The position numbers were made by a program, and so were the translations under genes. A model generated the notes under the pieces. It was not told the origin of the DNA, searched no databases, and saw nothing but the letters and a program-made list of their open reading frames with translations. Below, in pieces: positions 5,772 through 18,835 of a stretch of 25,329 nucleotides of DNA. The stretch's first letter is position 1. Each line of letters opens with the position of its first letter. Source of the DNA: a virus; the IMG/VR virus record IMGVR_UViG_3300009378_000059, positions 1 to 25,329 of that record. The stretch is one strand, 5' to 3'.

Positions 5772-6221
5772 TTAAATTAACCGATAGAATCTACCTCCTT
5801 TTTCCCAAAGCTCAAGTGACTCGGCATGAGCGTATTGCCTATTAAAAAAGAGCCATTCACACGGAGTTGCTAATAAAGCTTTTATGCAATGGACACAAGG
5901 AGAAACCGTTACATAAGCTGCGTAAATCTGACTAGGATTTAGGCAATGTGCAATAGCATTTATCTCCGCGTGAATGGACTCACACTTATCAAGTTCAGTA
6001 CCGGATTTTGCATTAGCTCCGGCACAAGGCTTATCAATACAATGGACTGTTCCACTTGGTACACCGTTATATCCAGTCGATATTACGTGATTATCTTTGT
6101 CAACCAAGACACAACCGACTTTACGTCTAGCACACGTACTTCTTTCAGAAACTAAACACGCCATTTTAAGATAGTAGTTTTCGATGCTAATTCTTTTAGA
6201 TACAATCTCTAAGTGCGGCAT
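5772..6221 (-). CDS. dCMP deaminase
   Basis: This enzyme converts dCMP to dUMP, feeding dTMP synthesis. With the start at 6221 it has 149 residues and begins MPHLEIVSKR. Zinc-site motifs are HAE (84-86, His84 and catalytic Glu86) and PCVHC (108-112, Cys109 and Cys112); CARRKVGCVLV and TGYNGVPSG are also family hallmarks. The longer open frame reaches 6308, but GAGAG lies seven bases before the 6221 ATG, and the N-terminal extension has no family similarity. It overlaps the glucosyltransferase 3' end by 26 bases. In T4 the equivalent gene (cd) works beside dCMP hydroxymethylase on the same dCMP pool, so its place as the last gene of this operon fits nucleotide balancing. Confidence 0.92.
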   Translation of the reverse strand: MPHLEIVSKRISIENYYLKMACLVSERSTCARRKVGCVLVDKDNHVISTGYNGVPSGTVHCIDKPCAGANAKSGTELDKCESIHAEINAIAHCLNPSQIYAAYVTVSPCVHCIKALLATPCEWLFFNRQYAHAESLELWEKGGRFYRLI

Positions 6222-7272
6222 GTAATTTCTCTCGTTCGGTGCATTCATTATAGTTGGTGAGTATGAAGTTGGTAGACTCCTTCGCCAATGTTTCTGCATG
6301 AGAATCAAACTCCATTATTTGACTTGGTTTATCGATATAAAGTTCTGGATATTTTGATTGATAGAAATTCATATAAGTATCCAAATCTCTATCAATATAA
6401 GTAAGACAGCCAGCAATAATAGATTCATACATCCTAAGAGTAAAGTAGTTGTTTTCATAATGTTTGTCTCCAATGATTATTGTTCCTCTTGCTTTCTTCA
6501 TTGTGGGAATAAAGTTTTGATAGCTGACAGCCTTATGTTTAGTTACATGCGGATAATCAAGTATGCCACGTAAGTTCCCGAAAAGTAGATTGCAAAACAT
6601 AGGATCAGTAAAATACTTTTCAATTTTCTTTCGCTTATGCGCATTACGTGTGGCTCCTCCAAAAGCTAAATCATATGGGCGTTCATCAAATCCTTTATAA
6701 CCTTCATATTTGGCGAGCGTAATACCCGCTAAAATAGTCTGAGCCCAAGGATAATGTAACATTCCTCTTGGTTTTATATTGTCTTCTTTCTTTTCGATTT
6801 CTTTATGGACTTTAAGAAGATTTTGACCTTGAGTAAGATATACAACTTTAGCAGGGTCAATGAAGAATTCTGATTCAGAATAGGATTGTGCCCACTCGCG
6901 GTTTTGTATAGAAGGCCATAGTTGTTTAAAAGGAAGTTGACCATCCGTCTGCGCATAAATAATACTCGTGTTAGTTTTAGAAAGTTTGCGATAGAGGGTT
7001 AAAAGATTAGGATCTTCAGCTCCACCAAAGAAATTGATACTAAAGTTGAAAAGCAATACAATATCAAAAGCGTCAAAGTCTACGTCATTAATGTCAACAA
7101 AGCTAAGGACGTCTGGAATATAAGTATTGCGTGTCTTCTTAGTAACAATAGTAACATCAATAGCTTTAGGATCAATTTGCCTTAATGCATAAAGAATATC
7201 TGCATTAGCTGCTGATCTATTGCTCTTTGAAAATGTAATATTAGTTCCGCCTTTACAAATCGCTATTCTCAT
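6196..7272 (-). CDS. T4-like DNA beta-glucosyltransferase (hydroxymethylcytosine DNA)
   Basis: This 358-residue protein should transfer glucose from UDP-glucose to 5-hydroxymethylcytosine in duplex DNA. Compared from memory with T4 beta-glucosyltransferase (351 residues), it matches along its length: MRIAI at the N-terminus, FSINFFGG (77-84), TDGQLPF (109-115), WPSIQNREWA (119-128), GGATRNAHKR (205-214), IIGDKHYENN (266-275) and LRMYES (279-284). T4 catalytic Asp100 corresponds to Asp110. T4 Arg191, Arg269 and Glu272 correspond to Arg209, Arg280 and Glu283; T4 Arg195 falls on Lys213. The start at 7272 overlaps the preceding stop as ATGA and has GGAGGA seven bases upstream; a five-residue upstream extension is less likely. 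The adjacent dCMP hydroxymethylase would supply the substrate. UDP-glucose is inferred from the T4 enzyme. Confidence 0.9.
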   Translation of the reverse strand: MRIAICKGGTNITFSKSNRSAANADILYALRQIDPKAIDVTIVTKKTRNTYIPDVLSFVDINDVDFDAFDIVLLFNFSINFFGGAEDPNLLTLYRKLSKTNTSIIYAQTDGQLPFKQLWPSIQNREWAQSYSESEFFIDPAKVVYLTQGQNLLKVHKEIEKKEDNIKPRGMLHYPWAQTILAGITLAKYEGYKGFDERPYDLAFGGATRNAHKRKKIEKYFTDPMFCNLLFGNLRGILDYPHVTKHKAVSYQNFIPTMKKARGTIIIGDKHYENNYFTLRMYESIIAGCLTYIDRDLDTYMNFYQSKYPELYIDKPSQIMEFDSHAETLAKESTNFILTNYNECTEREKLHAALRDCI

Positions 7273-8075
7273 GGGCGGATCCTCCAATGGTGATCTTCTT
7301 CAGTTTTATCGCGGCAAGCCAAGAGAGAATCCGTTATATACTTCCAATCTGTTAAGCACTTATCAGGAATTCTAATGTGATCTGGTTGTTTCATTAAAGT
7401 GAGTATTTGGTCAGCCAATTCGTAATGTGTTTCATAGAGATGAGCTGATATTGCATGAAGAGTCTGAATTCCAAGATCTACAATTGGTCGGCGCTCTTCA
7501 TCGAGCTTTTGATTAAGTCGGGTGAGAACTCTAAGCGTCATGACTGTGAAATTAAACATGTCATATGGGCGGCCAAGTATAAGGTCATTTGATCGCATTG
7601 TAACTGTCGTATTGAGCTTTCCATCTCTAATGTTAAAGATCAAGCTCACTGTACAGCGGTAGTCTTTAGAGTGAATCGGGTTGGGAACCCAAATAGTCAT
7701 TACTGCTTGACGTGTATGTGGATCATCGAATAATTGTTTAACGACATATTCGACTTGGCTTATAAACATAGGTCCATAAGCTCCATTGAAGATGTATCCG
7801 TCATCTGAGAACTGAGCAATGTGCTTGTTATATGGAGCAATTTCTTCAGTGAGCATAGATCCAGAAGTAATCCAATAAGCTTCAGCAGCCATAAAAATAT
7901 AGCTTAGTTTACGTCGAGAATGTTGACACACTGGATAATTCATATCGAACGATATTGTCTGATTCATTATCTCTTTGGTTTTCATACCTCTAACGGTAAC
8001 GTCATTACCTCTTTGGTATGTGACGGCTAATGAAGATAACCAAGCAGCATTAGCACTTTCATAAGGGTAAATCAC
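7269..8075 (-). CDS. dCMP hydroxymethylase (thymidylate synthase family)
   Basis: A thymidylate-synthase-fold enzyme of 268 residues. The catalytic Cys is Cys141 in YRCTVS, followed by MRSND (160-164) and LGRPYD (167-172). In thymidylate synthases the last position is Asn (E. coli Asn177) and contacts dUMP; in T4 gp42 it is Asp179, which selects dCMP. Here it is Asp172, and MRSND also matches gp42 rather than the RSxD of synthases. His212 and Tyr214 in AHLYETH are the usual nucleotide contacts. I therefore predict 5-hydroxymethyl-dCMP formation from dCMP and methylene-tetrahydrofolate. The start is the GTG at 8075, six bases after a perfect AGGAGG; an ATG at 8099 lies upstream of that site and lacks support. 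The gene overlaps the kinase by 17 bases and the glucosyltransferase by 4. Confidence 0.87.
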   Translation of the reverse strand: MIYPYESANAAWLSSLAVTYQRGNDVTVRGMKTKEIMNQTISFDMNYPVCQHSRRKLSYIFMAAEAYWITSGSMLTEEIAPYNKHIAQFSDDGYIFNGAYGPMFISQVEYVVKQLFDDPHTRQAVMTIWVPNPIHSKDYRCTVSLIFNIRDGKLNTTVTMRSNDLILGRPYDMFNFTVMTLRVLTRLNQKLDEERRPIVDLGIQTLHAISAHLYETHYELADQILTLMKQPDHIRIPDKCLTDWKYITDSLLACRDKTEEDHHWRIRP

Positions 8076-8562
8076 GGGGTCCCTCCTGAGTGTAGTCATA
8101 AGTAATATAAGGAAGTGAAGTCACAGAATCAAAGTCATAAGCATAAAAGTCATAAACTTGTTCCATTAAATCCTGATCTTTTACATATTCGCTATTAACG
8201 CGATTAGCCCAACCATTAATACATGTTTCTTTTGGTGGCAAGCATCTAATGACCTGAGCATTTAAAGCTTTGAATCTTTCTTCGATTGCGATATACTCAT
8301 GGTCAAGTATGTGTTCATTGCGAATTATTTGTCCATAAATCCAAGAAGAAATATGACAGCGATTAAAGACGAAAGTTACATCTGAAAATGTATGCTGAAG
8401 TATGTCCTCTACTTGGCGCAATTGGCCTCTGTAAGCTCGCATTGCATGAGCCTGAGATGGATAAGTGCTATTGTGAAAATAAATGACATCTTTCTTTGGC
8501 GTCATTCTTTGGATAAGAGTGTCTTTTCCTGAATGGTCAGGTCCTTCAAAGAGGTATATCAT
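8059..8562 (-). CDS. Deoxynucleoside monophosphate kinase, thymidylate-kinase-like
   Basis: A 167-residue P-loop kinase opening with MIYLFEGPDHSGKDT; the Walker A segment is residues 7-15 with Lys13. NRCHISSWIYGQ (68-79) sits where thymidylate kinases have a DRxxxSxxVYG-type segment, and Arg81 follows. The C-terminal region is divergent. Lying directly before the hydroxymethylase, it may phosphorylate hydroxymethyl-dCMP and possibly dTMP, the job done in T4 by the unrelated-looking gp1. Two adjacent ATGs (8565 and 8562) follow GGAGGG; the second has the better five-base spacing. It overlaps the MazG-like gene by 17 bases. The kinase fold is secure; the substrate is inferred from context. Confidence 0.82.
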   Translation of the reverse strand: MIYLFEGPDHSGKDTLIQRMTPKKDVIYFHNSTYPSQAHAMRAYRGQLRQVEDILQHTFSDVTFVFNRCHISSWIYGQIIRNEHILDHEYIAIEERFKALNAQVIRCLPPKETCINGWANRVNSEYVKDQDLMEQVYDFYAYDFDSVTSLPYITYDYTQEGPRDLPL

Positions 8563-8947
8563 CATAACCCTCCAAAATGCTTATATGATCTGGTCCTACC
8601 CAACCTTCTGGTTTGATAACATCCAAAGAAGAACCTCTTTTAGATTGTGAAGCATGTTTTGCTCGTTCTTTAGACATGTTAGCTCTTTGAATCTCATTCC
8701 AATGTCTTTGACTATTAACTCCCATTATATCAAGAGTACCAACGGCGATATAAACCAAATCTAAAAGCGCATCGATTTGCTCTGGAAGGTCATCTCGGGC
8801 GATCGCTTCATCGTATTCATCAAGTTCTTCTTGGAGAAATTTACGTCGAAAATCTTGAATTTCAAAATCAAGAGTTGTTGGGTTTGGTGTATATCGTGGA
8901 ACTCCATATTTTATATGGAAATCGGCTAAGTCCTTAAATACAGACAT
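8546..8947 (-). CDS. MazG-like nucleotide pyrophosphohydrolase
   Basis: This 133-residue all-alpha protein has the MazG/phosphoribosyl-ATP-pyrophosphohydrolase-like signature: Glu40, Glu41 and Glu44 in LQEELDEYDEA, then Asp60 and Asp63 in DALLDLVY. RANMSK (88-93) and KPEGWVGPD (112-120) are recurrent in phage members of the family. Such enzymes cut nucleoside triphosphates to monophosphates plus pyrophosphate. As first gene of the modification operon it could destroy dCTP and produce dCMP for the hydroxymethylase, the part T4 gives to gp56. That substrate is inference; a general house-cleaning role is the alternative. AAGGAG lies five bases before the ATG at 8947. It probably shares the promoter at 9423-9451 through read-through of the hairpin at 8987-9013. 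Confidence 0.82.
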   Translation of the reverse strand: MSVFKDLADFHIKYGVPRYTPNPTTLDFEIQDFRRKFLQEELDEYDEAIARDDLPEQIDALLDLVYIAVGTLDIMGVNSQRHWNEIQRANMSKERAKHASQSKRGSSLDVIKPEGWVGPDHISILEGYDDIPL

Positions 8948-8986
8948 GTTGTCTCCTTGTGTTTGATAATTTTGAAGCCCTTTGAA

Positions 8987-9013
8987 GGGCCATCGGCGTT
9001 ACCCGGATGGCCC
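8987..9013 (-). terminator. GC-rich intergenic hairpin, possible leaky terminator
   Basis: GGGCCATC / GATGGCCC form an 8-bp stem with an 11-base loop between the acidic-tailed gene and the MazG-like gene. A competing small stem (GCCCTTTGAAGGGC, 8977-8990) overlaps its foot. No T-tract follows on the minus strand, so full termination is doubtful. It could attenuate transcription or mark an RNA processing site separating the abundant upstream message from the modification operon. Confidence 0.5.
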
Positions 9014-9027
9014 TATACAGGGATTAC

Positions 9028-9354
9028 TTAGAAAGTCTCTTCAGTAGCTTCGGTTGCTTCAACTTCAGAGTCATCCTTAGAAGCGCGCTTCTTAGGCTCA
9101 TACTCTTCGACTGAAGCTCCATCAACTTCGATAGTGCCATGAATGAAGTCATAGTTAATATCGCCCATAGTCAAGCCATTGTCAAGAGCTTCTTGAACAT
9201 TAGCTGGAGCTGGATTAGTGAGGTAACCCTGGAAGCGGTCATAAGACGCAGAACCTTCACGCTTAGGATTCTCAGTTACATTAACGACAATAGCAGCTTC
9301 CTTAGTGATACCAACTGCCTTCTTCTTCATTACTAGTGCGGACTCATCAGACAT
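9028..9354 (-). CDS. Unknown protein with acidic C-terminal tail ending in Phe
   Basis: I do not recognise this 108-residue protein. It has a basic N-terminal region (VMKKKAVGI), a central segment with YDRFQGYLTNPAP (38-50) and a highly acidic C-terminal third ending in Glu-Glu-Thr-Phe. The tail resembles those of SSB-type proteins and of the DUF2815 protein in this window. Its gene has a consensus promoter, a predicted 5'-terminal hairpin, AAGGAG six bases before the ATG and a hairpin downstream, so high expression is likely. A helicase- or DNA-associated role, possibly an accessory replication protein competing for or bridging SSB partners, is a guess from the tail and position; a small structural protein cannot be excluded. 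Confidence 0.75.
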   Translation of the reverse strand: MSDESALVMKKKAVGITKEAAIVVNVTENPKREGSASYDRFQGYLTNPAPANVQEALDNGLTMGDINYDFIHGTIEVDGASVEEYEPKKRASKDDSEVEATEATEETF

Positions 9355-9422: not shown

Positions 9423-9451
9423 ATTATATAATAAATGGTTTCCGTTGTAAA
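9423..9451 (-). promoter_or_regulatory. Sigma-70 promoter upstream of the acidic-tailed protein
   Basis: On the minus strand TTTACA (9451-9446) and TATAAT (9428-9423) are separated by 17 bases. The -35 lies just past the stop codon of the SNF2 helicase gene. It should drive the 9028-9354 gene and, by read-through, the nucleotide-modification operon. Unlike the other leftward promoters its spacer shows no obvious palindrome. Confidence 0.85.
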
Positions 9452-14896: not shown

Positions 14897-15433
14897 GTGT
14901 ATAAACAGTCAGAAATCCCCATCGAAGATAAAGGCGCAGGACATTTGAAACTTTTATCTGAAGGCAAAGAAGCTGGAGGAGAGGAGCATTTCAAAAGTTC
15001 AGAGTTTAAAAGTATGATTTCATTCGAAAAAATGCTATTGAGCTCAGAAGAGGTTCCAGACATTTTAGCCGTAGTTTGGTTAGACCACTTTCCGATTGAT
15101 GTCTATACTTCGAGACGTATTAGTGGCTTAGCAGCACGAATGCCAAAGGAACACATATTGTCTATTGTGTTTCCGTTATATGATTTGAGCTCGGCAGAAG
15201 AAGAGTTCTTTGACTTACTTGTGTCTTTTGGCGCTGGAATAGGACTTGATTTGGTCACTGCCGAATTGTTTGATGGAGCTCGCAGTGGAGACCCGCGCGC
15301 CGTCAAGATGTATTTGGAAATGCAGAGTTATATTAGCGGTCTTGGCGTTGAGGTTGAGGATAGTGGACCAAGAGGAGGATTGCGTGTGGCGTTTGATGTG
15401 ACTGGGAAGTTACCGGATAAGCTTGATGGATAA
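14897..15433 (+). CDS. Unknown rightward protein, candidate small terminase subunit
   Basis: A 178-residue protein started by GTG at 14897, six bases after AGGAGA. No catalytic motif is visible. The N-terminal 40 residues are polar; the middle is helical and hydrophobic (PDILAVVWLDHF, HILSIVFPLYDL). Residues about 124-145 (LFDGARSGDPRAVKMYLEMQSY) resemble the A-x-x-GDxxAxxxYL segment common near the C-terminus of small terminase subunits. Being the first rightward gene before the large terminase supports that idea, but the GC-rich cassette now separates the two. Alternative: an unrelated DNA-binding or host-takeover protein. Translation is well supported; function is not. Confidence 0.7.
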   Translation: MYKQSEIPIEDKGAGHLKLLSEGKEAGGEEHFKSSEFKSMISFEKMLLSSEEVPDILAVVWLDHFPIDVYTSRRISGLAARMPKEHILSIVFPLYDLSSAEEEFFDLLVSFGAGIGLDLVTAELFDGARSGDPRAVKMYLEMQSYISGLGVEVEDSGPRGGLRVAFDVTGKLPDKLDG

Positions 15434-16958: not shown

Positions 16959-18383
16959 ATGGAAAGTATAGATTACATTGCATCACCTACAGCAGGTGAA
17001 TTCCATCGCGATGATAATTTTGTACGTGGTCTTATTGGTCCTATCGGATCGGGTAAGTCCGTTTCCTGTTGTATTGAAATCTTTAAGCGAGCTTGCGAAC
17101 AGCGAGCGCATACTGACGGAGTCCGCTATTCTCGTTGGGTTATCGTGCGTAACACTTATCGTGAGCTTGTTGATACAACTATGCAAACTTGGTTTGATTG
17201 GTTCCCCAAGACTCTAGGCCATTGGCGCGCAGCCGATATGAAACAGACTATTGAGTTCACTTTAACTGATGAAACGGTAGTCCATCTTGAAGTACTGTTC
17301 CGCGCACTTGACCGACCGGATGATGTGAAGAAACTTCTTTCTTTGGAACTCACCGGTGGCTGGATCAATGAGGCAAGAGAAATACCAAAGCCAATCCTTG
17401 ATATGCTCATTGGTCGTGTCGGTCGCTATCCCTCCAAAAGATATGGTGGTGCTAGTTGGTATGGCGTAATCAATGATACTAACCCACCAGACACTGATCA
17501 TTGGTGGTATAGAATGTTTGAGGAGCAGCAGCCAGAGGGATGGAAGGATTTTCACCAACCATCTGGTGTTTCTCCTGAGGCGGAGAATATAGACAACTTA
17601 CCTGATGAATATTATAAGCGCCTCAGTTCGGGTAAGGATCAAGAATGGATAAATGTGTACGTACACGGTAAATACGGATTCGTACAAGATGGTAAGATCA
17701 TTTATCCAGAATACAATGATAATCTCCACTGTGTACATGATCTTGGTCTCCATGAAAAGACTGAGAAGGTTATTATAGGTGTTGACTTTGGTCTTACGCC
17801 CGCTGCTGTAATCGCACAGATATCTCGGTCAGACGGCCAAGTACAGATCATCGATGAGATCGTAACTGAAGATATGGGAGCTGTTCGCTTTGGTAAGCGC
17901 ATTAAGGAGTTAGTTATAAGCAATTATGACAATCTGCCTATGGAAGGTTATGGCGACCCAGCAGGGGAGCAAAGAAGCCAAGTTGATGAGCGGACTCCTT
18001 TCTTTGTATTAGAGGCACAGGGTGTATTTCTTCGCCCTGGACCAACCAATGATTTCACGATTCGCAGGGAATCAGTGGCTAAATTGTTGACGACTCTTAC
18101 TCTGCTTGGTCGCCCCCAATTAGTAATCTCACCTAAGTGCAGAATGCTCAGAAAGGCTATGGCTGGTGGTTATAAGTATCGCCGCATTAATGTATCTGGC
18201 ACAGACAAATATGCTGAAAAGCCAGATAAGAATATGTACTCGCACGTAGCTGAAGCTCTGCAGTATTTGTGTACGGGACTAGGACATGGTTATGAACTCC
18301 TTAAAAGAGCTGAAGATGAAGTTCCTCGAGATTATTCTGCGCAGGGCCTCGATTACGATCCACTCGGAAGGGCAGCGGCGTGA
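16959..18383 (+). CDS. terL: Terminase large subunit
   Basis: A 474-residue DNA-packaging motor. The ATPase has Walker A GPIGSGKS (27-34, Lys33) and Walker B-like GGWINEAREI (133-142, Glu138). The C-terminal nuclease has IIGVDFG (272-278, Asp276), YGDPAG (331-336, Asp333) and SHVAEALQYL (428-437), where the third acidic position is Glu432. The ATG at 16959 is preferred: the upstream extension to 16923 is inside the promoter, and MESIDYIASP is a reasonable terminase start. There is no ribosome binding site and the predicted transcript begins at the ATG, so the message may be leaderless. It starts the rightward head-tail operon and overlaps the acetyltransferase by four bases. Confidence 0.95.
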   Translation: MESIDYIASPTAGEFHRDDNFVRGLIGPIGSGKSVSCCIEIFKRACEQRAHTDGVRYSRWVIVRNTYRELVDTTMQTWFDWFPKTLGHWRAADMKQTIEFTLTDETVVHLEVLFRALDRPDDVKKLLSLELTGGWINEAREIPKPILDMLIGRVGRYPSKRYGGASWYGVINDTNPPDTDHWWYRMFEEQQPEGWKDFHQPSGVSPEAENIDNLPDEYYKRLSSGKDQEWINVYVHGKYGFVQDGKIIYPEYNDNLHCVHDLGLHEKTEKVIIGVDFGLTPAAVIAQISRSDGQVQIIDEIVTEDMGAVRFGKRIKELVISNYDNLPMEGYGDPAGEQRSQVDERTPFFVLEAQGVFLRPGPTNDFTIRRESVAKLLTTLTLLGRPQLVISPKCRMLRKAMAGGYKYRRINVSGTDKYAEKPDKNMYSHVAEALQYLCTGLGHGYELLKRAEDEVPRDYSAQGLDYDPLGRAAA

Positions 18384-18835
18384 TTCAGTATTCGCAGATG
18401 GACTACGCTGATATTCCAGAAGTAATATCACTTGGTGCACAGATGCATAAAGAATCTCGCTATGCTAAGTATCCTTATGATGAGGACTATTGCTTGGACA
18501 TGGCAGGCCAAGTGATTAAAGATGATATGTTCTATAGTGGACTTGCAAAAGAGAATGAAGAATTGATCGGAATGATCTTTGGATTCTTAAATAAGGTTCC
18601 CTTTTGTAAGGCCATTAGTGCTGGTGATCTCTTATTTTATGTTCACCCAGAAAAGCGTAATGGTAAAGTAGCTTTACGTTTGGTTCGTGATTTTGAAAAG
18701 TGGGCTCGCTATCACAATGTAGAAGAGATTCAGATGGGCATCTCTGCGGATATTAACCCAGACAGAGTAGCTAAATTTTATAACCGACTGGGATATGATT
18801 ATCACGGTCATTTTATGATTAAAGGAAAAGACTAA
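18380..18835 (+). CDS. GNAT family N-acetyltransferase
   Basis: A 151-residue GNAT-fold protein. The acetyl-CoA-binding region is YVHPEKRNGKVALRLVRDFE (residues 87-106), an R/K-x-x-G-x-x-A variant of motif A, followed by the C-terminal NPDRVAKFYNRLGYDYHG typical of motif B. The start is GTG at 18380, overlapping the terminase stop as GTGA, with GGAAGGG seven bases upstream; an ATG at 18398 is possible. It is locked between terminase and portal in the late operon, a position where small acetyltransferases recur in podoviruses. The substrate is unknown: a virion protein, host protein or small molecule are all possible. Confidence 0.88.
   Translation: MIQYSQMDYADIPEVISLGAQMHKESRYAKYPYDEDYCLDMAGQVIKDDMFYSGLAKENEELIGMIFGFLNKVPFCKAISAGDLLFYVHPEKRNGKVALRLVRDFEKWARYHNVEEIQMGISADINPDRVAKFYNRLGYDYHGHFMIKGKD

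Follow-up and report, generated by a model that had tools for sequence, protein, structure and literature searches.

Gene order and reading frames

The stretch of DNA analysed here, which we call the window, comprises the 25,329 nt of IMG/VR record IMGVR_UViG_3300009378_000059, from a small, short-tailed marine phage known only from metagenomes. On its minus strand, from 8947 to 5772, lie five overlapping open reading frames (ORFs) that encode, in order, a MazG-like protein, a kinase, a hydroxymethylase, a DNA beta-glucosyltransferase (BGT) and a dCMP deaminase. From sequence comparison and structure models, we consider it likely that these genes constitute a single operon for the synthesis of 5-(beta-glucosyl)hydroxymethylcytosine (glucosyl-hmC) in the phage's own DNA. 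The five genes, with the evidence for each, are as follows:

8546..8947, minus strand: MazG-like all-alpha NTP pyrophosphohydrolase, 133 aa; suggested to turn dCTP into dCMP (Pfam, PHROG, PDB, motifs)
8059..8562, minus strand: P-loop (d)NMP-type kinase with thymidylate-kinase fold, 167 aa; proposed hydroxymethyl-dCMP (hm-dCMP) kinase (PHROG, AlphaFold, P-loop)
7269..8075, minus strand: putative dCMP 5-hydroxymethylase, thymidylate synthase superfamily; 268 aa when counted from GTG 8075 (Pfam, residues, PDB)
6196..7272, minus strand: T4-type BGT, 358 aa from ATG 7272 (Pfam, PDB, AlphaFold, residues)
5772..6221, minus strand: dCMP deaminase, 149 aa from ATG 6221 (Pfam, PHROG, PDB, zinc motifs)

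In T4, the glucosyl-hmC pathway consists of gp56 (dCTP to dCMP), gp42, gp1, beta-GT and Cd, and DNA with glucosyl-hmC is a classical feature of the large T4-like phages.

A preliminary description of the window had placed five overlapping genes here in this order, and all five ORFs are present on the minus strand. The overlaps between adjoining genes are real, and ribosome-binding sites are present. The locus and gene order therefore stand as described, while some of the start codons do not: the naive ORF starts are too far upstream for BGT, the deaminase and the hydroxymethylase. The BGT start is moved to ATG 7272, which forms an ATGA overlap with the hydroxymethylase stop, and the deaminase start to ATG 6221; the hydroxymethylase probably starts at GTG 8075, behind AGGAGG. 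The gene identities given in that description are upheld, and they are strengthened by relatives and by published data.

Hydroxymethylase, BGT and deaminase

The hydroxymethylase matches the Pfam thymidylate synthase (TS) superfamily (E 2.5e-16, above the cut-off), and its best PDB match is a CMP hydroxymethylase (E 6e-17), with T4 dCMP hydroxymethylase at E 1e-6. The catalytic Cys141, Asp172 at the position of E. coli TS Asn177, and Thr142 at the position of His147 are all as in T4 gp42. Asp occupies TS position 177 in all 88 aligned sequences, and Thr occupies position 147 in 85 of them. These two positions best separate modified-cytosine from unmodified contigs in MetaGPA, and Asp at position 177 gives a preference for dCMP (PMC8670742). 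Identity as a thymidylate synthase is rejected on account of this Asp.

The three residues alone do not settle the product, because the same Cys, Thr and Asp are found in a homologue that makes something else, the RB69 5-hydroxy-dCMP (5-hodCMP) synthase (PMC13390438). That candidate is set aside by an MRSND...G motif, which is present in the window enzyme and in T4 gp42 and absent from the RB69 synthase (the region reads MRSNDLILGRPYD in the window, MRSNDVVFGFRND in T4 and MRSQNCAVVMQLD in RB69); as a separator from 5-hydroxy-dCMP synthase, the motif is a sequence criterion proposed here rather than an established test. Conversion of dCMP to 5-hm-dCMP by the window enzyme is, on these residues, strongly supported.

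BGT scores 85.3 bits against the Pfam family T4-Gluco-transf (PF09198, GT63; cut-off 27, E 5e-24), and matches the PHROG beta-glucosyltransferase family (E 3e-34) and PDB entry 1bgt (E 7e-31). Its AlphaFold model has a pLDDT (predicted local distance difference test) of 91, and the six best PDB matches of the model are all T4 BGT (template modelling (TM) score about 0.8, E 6e-23 to 4e-18), with the next-best fold family only at E 4e-7. Residues D110, R209, R280 and E283 correspond to D100, R191, R269 and E272 of T4, which we take to be the catalytic and UDP-binding residues, and are invariant in 18 BGTs. Family, model and residues strongly support a predicted enzyme that glucosylates hmC in duplex DNA from UDP-glucose. 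T4-type BGTs are found in 119 GenBank phage records; the 60 matches listed are from T4-like phages, Enterococcus phages and Acinetobacter phage pieces, and none of these exceeds 30.3% identity.

The dCMP deaminase has the zinc motifs HAE and PCxxC and matches Pfam dCMP_cyt_deam (E 2e-18, above the cut-off), PHROG 174 (E 6e-36) and a dCMP deaminase in the PDB (E 8e-18).

MazG-like enzyme and kinase

The MazG-like protein, in which EExxE and ExxD motifs are visible, matches Pfam PRA-PH (PF01503; E 1e-12, above the cut-off), PHROG 671 (E 3e-24) and, in the PDB, the MazG-like protein DR2231 (E 3e-8). In the Pfam scan PF01503 alone was matched, with no match to dUTPase_2 (PF08761), whereas T4 gp56 matches PF08761 and, weakly and below the cut-off, PF01503. 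Dimeric dUTPases and MazG are placed in one all-alpha NTP pyrophosphohydrolase superfamily in a statement that PMC7162842 attributes to Moroz 2005. Judged by these profiles, T4 gp56 and the window MazG belong to the same superfamily and to different families. The preliminary description had assigned the gp56 role to a different protein family, which is right for PRA-PH versus dUTPase_2 and too strong in that the superfamily is shared.

The kinase matches the PHROG thymidylate kinase family (E 1e-11) and contains the P-loop GPDHSGKDT; against Pfam thymidylate kinase (PF02223) it scores 13.1 bits, below the cut-off of 27. A phmmer search against the PDB gave no match, and a fold prediction was therefore made. 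The AlphaFold model (pLDDT 91) has YorR (3kb2) as its top PDB match (E 6e-7, TM 0.69), followed by thymidylate kinases, so that the similarity to thymidylate kinases is at the fold level only (TM 0.6-0.7). Homologues of the kinase sit in the cassettes of AXL3, PW916 and S28C10. T4 gp1 matches PF21448 at 358 bits and the window kinase has no match to that family in the Pfam scan, which bears out the earlier suggestion that the gp1 role is filled by a different family here.

The phage and its relatives

IMG/VR record IMGVR_UViG_3300013119_000212 (35,304 bp) contains the entire window with 9 base differences, and the window is thus a fragment. The window encodes a T7-type connector, tail tubular proteins and internal virion proteins, and its major capsid protein is 66% identical to that of Pelagibacter podovirus Baldr, in agreement with the podovirus label that the phage had been given.

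Relatives in IMG/VR were found with a BGT profile and a hydroxymethylase profile. The lineage consists of four clusters (window/G001, G004/G005, G002 and G003), which have in common the genes for PolA, SSB, an SNF2-type helicase, MazG, the hydroxymethylase and BGT. It is rare in IMG/VR, since PolA searches with one sequence and then with four gave the same five contigs only, plus remote ones. The same five cassette genes recur in the same order, at 64-72% protein identity, in contigs L021 and L022, and the cassette is therefore not a chance arrangement. Cluster G003 has no deaminase.

Between the window and G004, the cassette proteins are 64-72% identical with nonsynonymous-to-synonymous ratios (pN/pS) of 0.31-0.43, and the 108-aa protein encoded upstream of the cassette, SSB and PolA are 83-85% identical with ratios of 0.13-0.17; these ratios are rough, as synonymous sites are near saturation. 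The cassette is under purifying selection and yet evolves faster than the replication genes.

The genome of G002 is 40,471 bp long with a 127-base terminal repeat. In this cluster (L121, L122) the replication genes, modification genes and terminase are kept, and the portal, capsid and tail set is unrelated, a difference due to module exchange.

Proposed pathway and alternative readings

In the pathway that we propose, the MazG-like enzyme would convert dCTP to dCMP, which would keep plain cytosine out of new DNA and feed the next step. The hydroxymethylase would then convert dCMP to 5-hm-dCMP with methylene-tetrahydrofolate, a step strongly supported by its active-site residues, and the kinase, together with host kinases, would carry hm-dCMP towards hm-dCTP for incorporation by the phage's PolA-type polymerase. 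BGT would glucosylate hmC in duplex DNA, with host UDP-glucose as the donor, a step that its family, fold and catalytic residues strongly support. Surplus dCMP would be converted by the deaminase to dUMP for dTMP; this step, which one relative lacks, is accessory. The same pathway had been put forward in the preliminary description, and relatives and published data support it, with glucosyl-hmC as the predicted product.

By analogy with T4 and AXL3, the expected effect would be resistance to many restriction enzymes. In T4, glucosylation is protective against some CRISPR types and several restriction systems, and it attracts enzymes of the GmrSD type (PMC13216743), whereas PMC4041780 reports in its title that Cas9-mediated resistance is not impeded by T4 modifications. 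As the published T4 results conflict, protection from CRISPR calls for cautious wording, and the window phage may, again by analogy, be protected from restriction and CRISPR.

Several points weigh against the proposed pathway. The phage and its lineage are known from genes alone, and the patterns used to look for the BGT clade matched nothing in a set of 84,980 bacterial and archaeal species, one genome per species, and so point to no host. The preference for dCTP cannot be read off the MazG sequence, and DR2231, the nearest solved homologue, reportedly prefers dUTP. BGT is only about 25-30% identical to the T4 enzyme, and T4 Glu22 is replaced by Asp25 in the window BGT and the podovirus clade. 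The DR motif of the kinase has Asn in place of Asp in the window (residue 67, window 8362-8364) and in L021, where nearly all other cassette kinases keep the Asp, and the relative L044/G002 has a DUF6378 protein in the kinase position. For these last two reasons the kinase substrate is the least certain and weakest step of the predicted pathway.

In one alternative reading the system is partial or weak, with only a fraction of the cytosines bearing hmC and glucose because MazG is a general house-cleaning enzyme and the kinase is unspecific. The unpredictable specificity of MazG and the altered kinase motif would fit such a system, as would the absence of the kinase and of the deaminase each from one relative and the faster evolution of the cassette than of the replication genes. 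We nevertheless regard it as unlikely, given that every frame is intact and under purifying selection and that MazG, the hydroxymethylase and BGT are kept in every member of the lineage found. Another modified cytosine is quite unlikely as the product, whether it be 5-hydroxy-dCMP as in RB69/NP, 5-methyl-dCMP as from Asp177 TS variants, or a cytosine with another sugar. The RB69 synthase shares the Cys, Thr and Asp, sugar-donor specificity is not readable from sequence, and Asn177Asp thymidylate synthase makes 5mdCMP (PMC8670742). However, the window enzyme has MRSND...G like T4 gp42 and other hydroxymethylases, and the transferase belongs to the beta-GT family, which acts on 5-hmC; a methyl product would leave BGT without a hydroxyl to glycosylate, and the scan of window ORFs turned up no genes of an arabinose pathway.

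The cassette might also be read as ordinary thymidylate metabolism, in which deaminase, TS and thymidylate kinase lead to dTTP and the glycosyltransferase acts elsewhere. The gene order can be taken as a route from dCMP through dUMP and dTMP to dTDP, relatives carry the database names thymidylate synthase and thymidylate kinase, and the authors of the AXL3 paper interpret its genes as thymidylate synthesis (PMC7504290). Against this stand the replacement of the dUMP-selecting Asn by Asp throughout the alignment, the separate ThyX-type enzyme of AXL3 together with the resistance of AXL3 DNA to G/C-site enzymes, and the position of BGT next to the hydroxymethylase in nearly all loci, and we find this reading very improbable.

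If the cassette does make glucosyl-hmC, a whole pathway would be contained in 3.2 kb of a small podovirus genome whose capsid genes are close to those of SAR11 phages, and DNA of this kind usually resists restriction enzymes. Transfer of this compact five-gene set to a laboratory host could show which of the steps suffice for glucosyl-hmC.

Comparison with known systems

The reactions proposed for the window are those of T4, with homologous hydroxymethylase, BGT and dCMP deaminase. The window differs from T4 in having a single 3.2-kb operon in a podovirus-type genome, with a thymidylate-kinase-like enzyme instead of gp1; no alpha-glucosyltransferase is seen in the window phage, and its BGT and hydroxymethylase are only 24-30% identical to their T4 counterparts.

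A second compact, non-T4 arrangement of hydroxymethylase and BGT is found in Enterococcus siphophages (nattely, VPE25, VFW; L003), which encode a P-loop protein directly upstream of a TS-type hydroxymethylase, a dUTPase-family protein and BGT. This cluster differs from the window in that the dUTPase-family (PF00692) protein takes the place of MazG and no dCMP deaminase adjoins it; its BGT is 28-30% identical to that of the window, and the phage type is different. No published evidence on the DNA chemistry of these phages was found in the library searched. Since a compact hydroxymethylase-BGT cluster is on record for them, compactness by itself is no novelty. What is new is the podovirus lineage, the version with MazG and a thymidylate-kinase-like kinase, and the link to an environmental cassette. 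Our literature search found no paper that combines a podovirus with hmC and BGT, and podoviruses go unmentioned in the main text of a 2026 survey that looked at 753 phages for homologues of the T-even glucosyltransferases (PMC13216743).

The MetaGPA cassette (PMC8670742) resembles that of the window in its TS Asp177 enzyme, PRA-PH, dCMP deaminase and hydroxyl-decorating transferase, but the decorator is a 5-hmC carbamoyltransferase there and BGT here. No 5-hmC carbamoyltransferase domain was found among the window proteins scanned against Pfam.

Cassettes without BGT and origin of the podovirus system

The hydroxymethylase lies close to BGT in 24 of 25 BGT rows of our survey (some contigs are entered twice). 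In 33 of the fetched loci MazG, the kinase, the hydroxymethylase and the deaminase stand together with no BGT, and the BGT-less cassette is widespread. AXL3, PW916 and Votkovvirus S28C10 (L005, L004, L012) have MazG, the kinase, the TS-type Asp enzyme and dCMP deaminase in the same order as the window, and, unlike the window, have no BGT in the loci read.

AXL3 DNA was cut by 2 of 37 restriction enzymes, TasI and Tru1I, which have A/T-only sites, and the sites of the other 35 contain G/C (PMC7504290). Asp at TS position 177 argues for dCMP rather than dUMP as the probable substrate of the AXL3 enzyme, and the cassette offers a possible explanation for the restriction resistance. On modified-cytosine contigs, TS, PRA-PH and dCMP deaminase domains are found together, with a carbamoyltransferase (PMC8670742). 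Both the AXL3 and the MetaGPA experiments concern relatives of the window phage.

The dCMP-type Asp is also seen in genes whose annotation is thymidylate synthase or dUMP hydroxymethyltransferase, from the following phages:

L005:5983-6792, AXL3
L004:3280-4098, PW916
L006:5938-6786 and L017:3989-4807, Pelagibacter phages HTVC119P/HTVC200P
L012:6479-7237, S28C10

Because of this residue the annotations are probably wrong, and many of the phage genes in this cassette that bear the name thymidylate synthase probably encode dCMP hydroxymethylases.

In most BGT-less cassettes, including those of AXL3, PW916 and a Manatee Spring phage, a conserved S-adenosylmethionine (SAM)-dependent methyltransferase lies upstream of MazG instead. 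Examples are:

L005:3650-4474, SAM methyltransferase
L004:934-1758, SAM methyltransferase
L007:3847-4596, SAM methyltransferase

The gene occurs in 57 of the 80 loci L041-L120 and in none of the 5 BGT loci (Fisher p 0.0014; the BGT loci are one lineage and not independent). It may be the decorator in the BGT-less cassettes, adding for example an O-methyl group to hmC.

In the BGT tree, the four podovirus sequences form one clade (100/100) on a long branch. In the hydroxymethylase tree, the window lineage groups with the BGT-less cassettes (94/92), apart from the T4 and Enterococcus hydroxymethylases. This suggests, tentatively since the branches are long, that the pairing of BGT with a hydroxymethylase arose more than once, and that the window BGT joined the environmental cassette separately from those of T4 and the Enterococcus phages. 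A broader idea, which we judge to be evenly balanced between right and wrong, is that a beta-glucosyl-hmC genome was built independently of T4: the podovirus lineage would have taken the widespread environmental MazG/kinase/hydroxymethylase/deaminase cassette and combined it with a deeply divergent BGT, so that cytosine would be replaced almost completely in a genome of about 40 kb with another kinase family. The cassette would then be, in general, a common hmC chassis with varying decorators, BGT here and carbamoyltransferase, or perhaps methyltransferase, elsewhere.

Promoter-like sites and neighbouring genes

Two features precede the cassette:

9028..9354, minus strand: conserved small protein, 108 aa, just upstream of the cassette (conservation in relatives)
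9423..9451, minus strand: sigma70-like promoter TTTACA-17-TATAAT, upstream of both ORF 9028-9354 and the cassette (11/12 consensus matches)

TTTACA-17-TATAAT sites occur four times in the window (14720, 11717, 9451 and 5763), all on the minus strand, which is the early-gene strand; the four compare with a mean of 1.02 and a maximum of 5 in 100 simulated sequences. Their sequence and strand suggest that they may be host-type early promoters. The 108-aa protein is 84-85% identical in L021, which is above the conservation of the cassette, and is found in the same place in L044 and L045; scans of Pfam and PHROG gave no family match for it. Between its ORF and MazG lies an inverted repeat, GGGCCATC...GATGGCCC (8985-9020), possibly a processing or attenuation site.

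At the switch from early to late genes, a plus-strand ORF of 178 aa (14897-15433) is about 77% conserved in L021/L022 and has no family match in library scans. Directly after the large terminase, the plus strand encodes a GNAT acetyltransferase (18380-18835), and Pelagibacter phage Baldr also has a GNAT acetyltransferase near its terminase.

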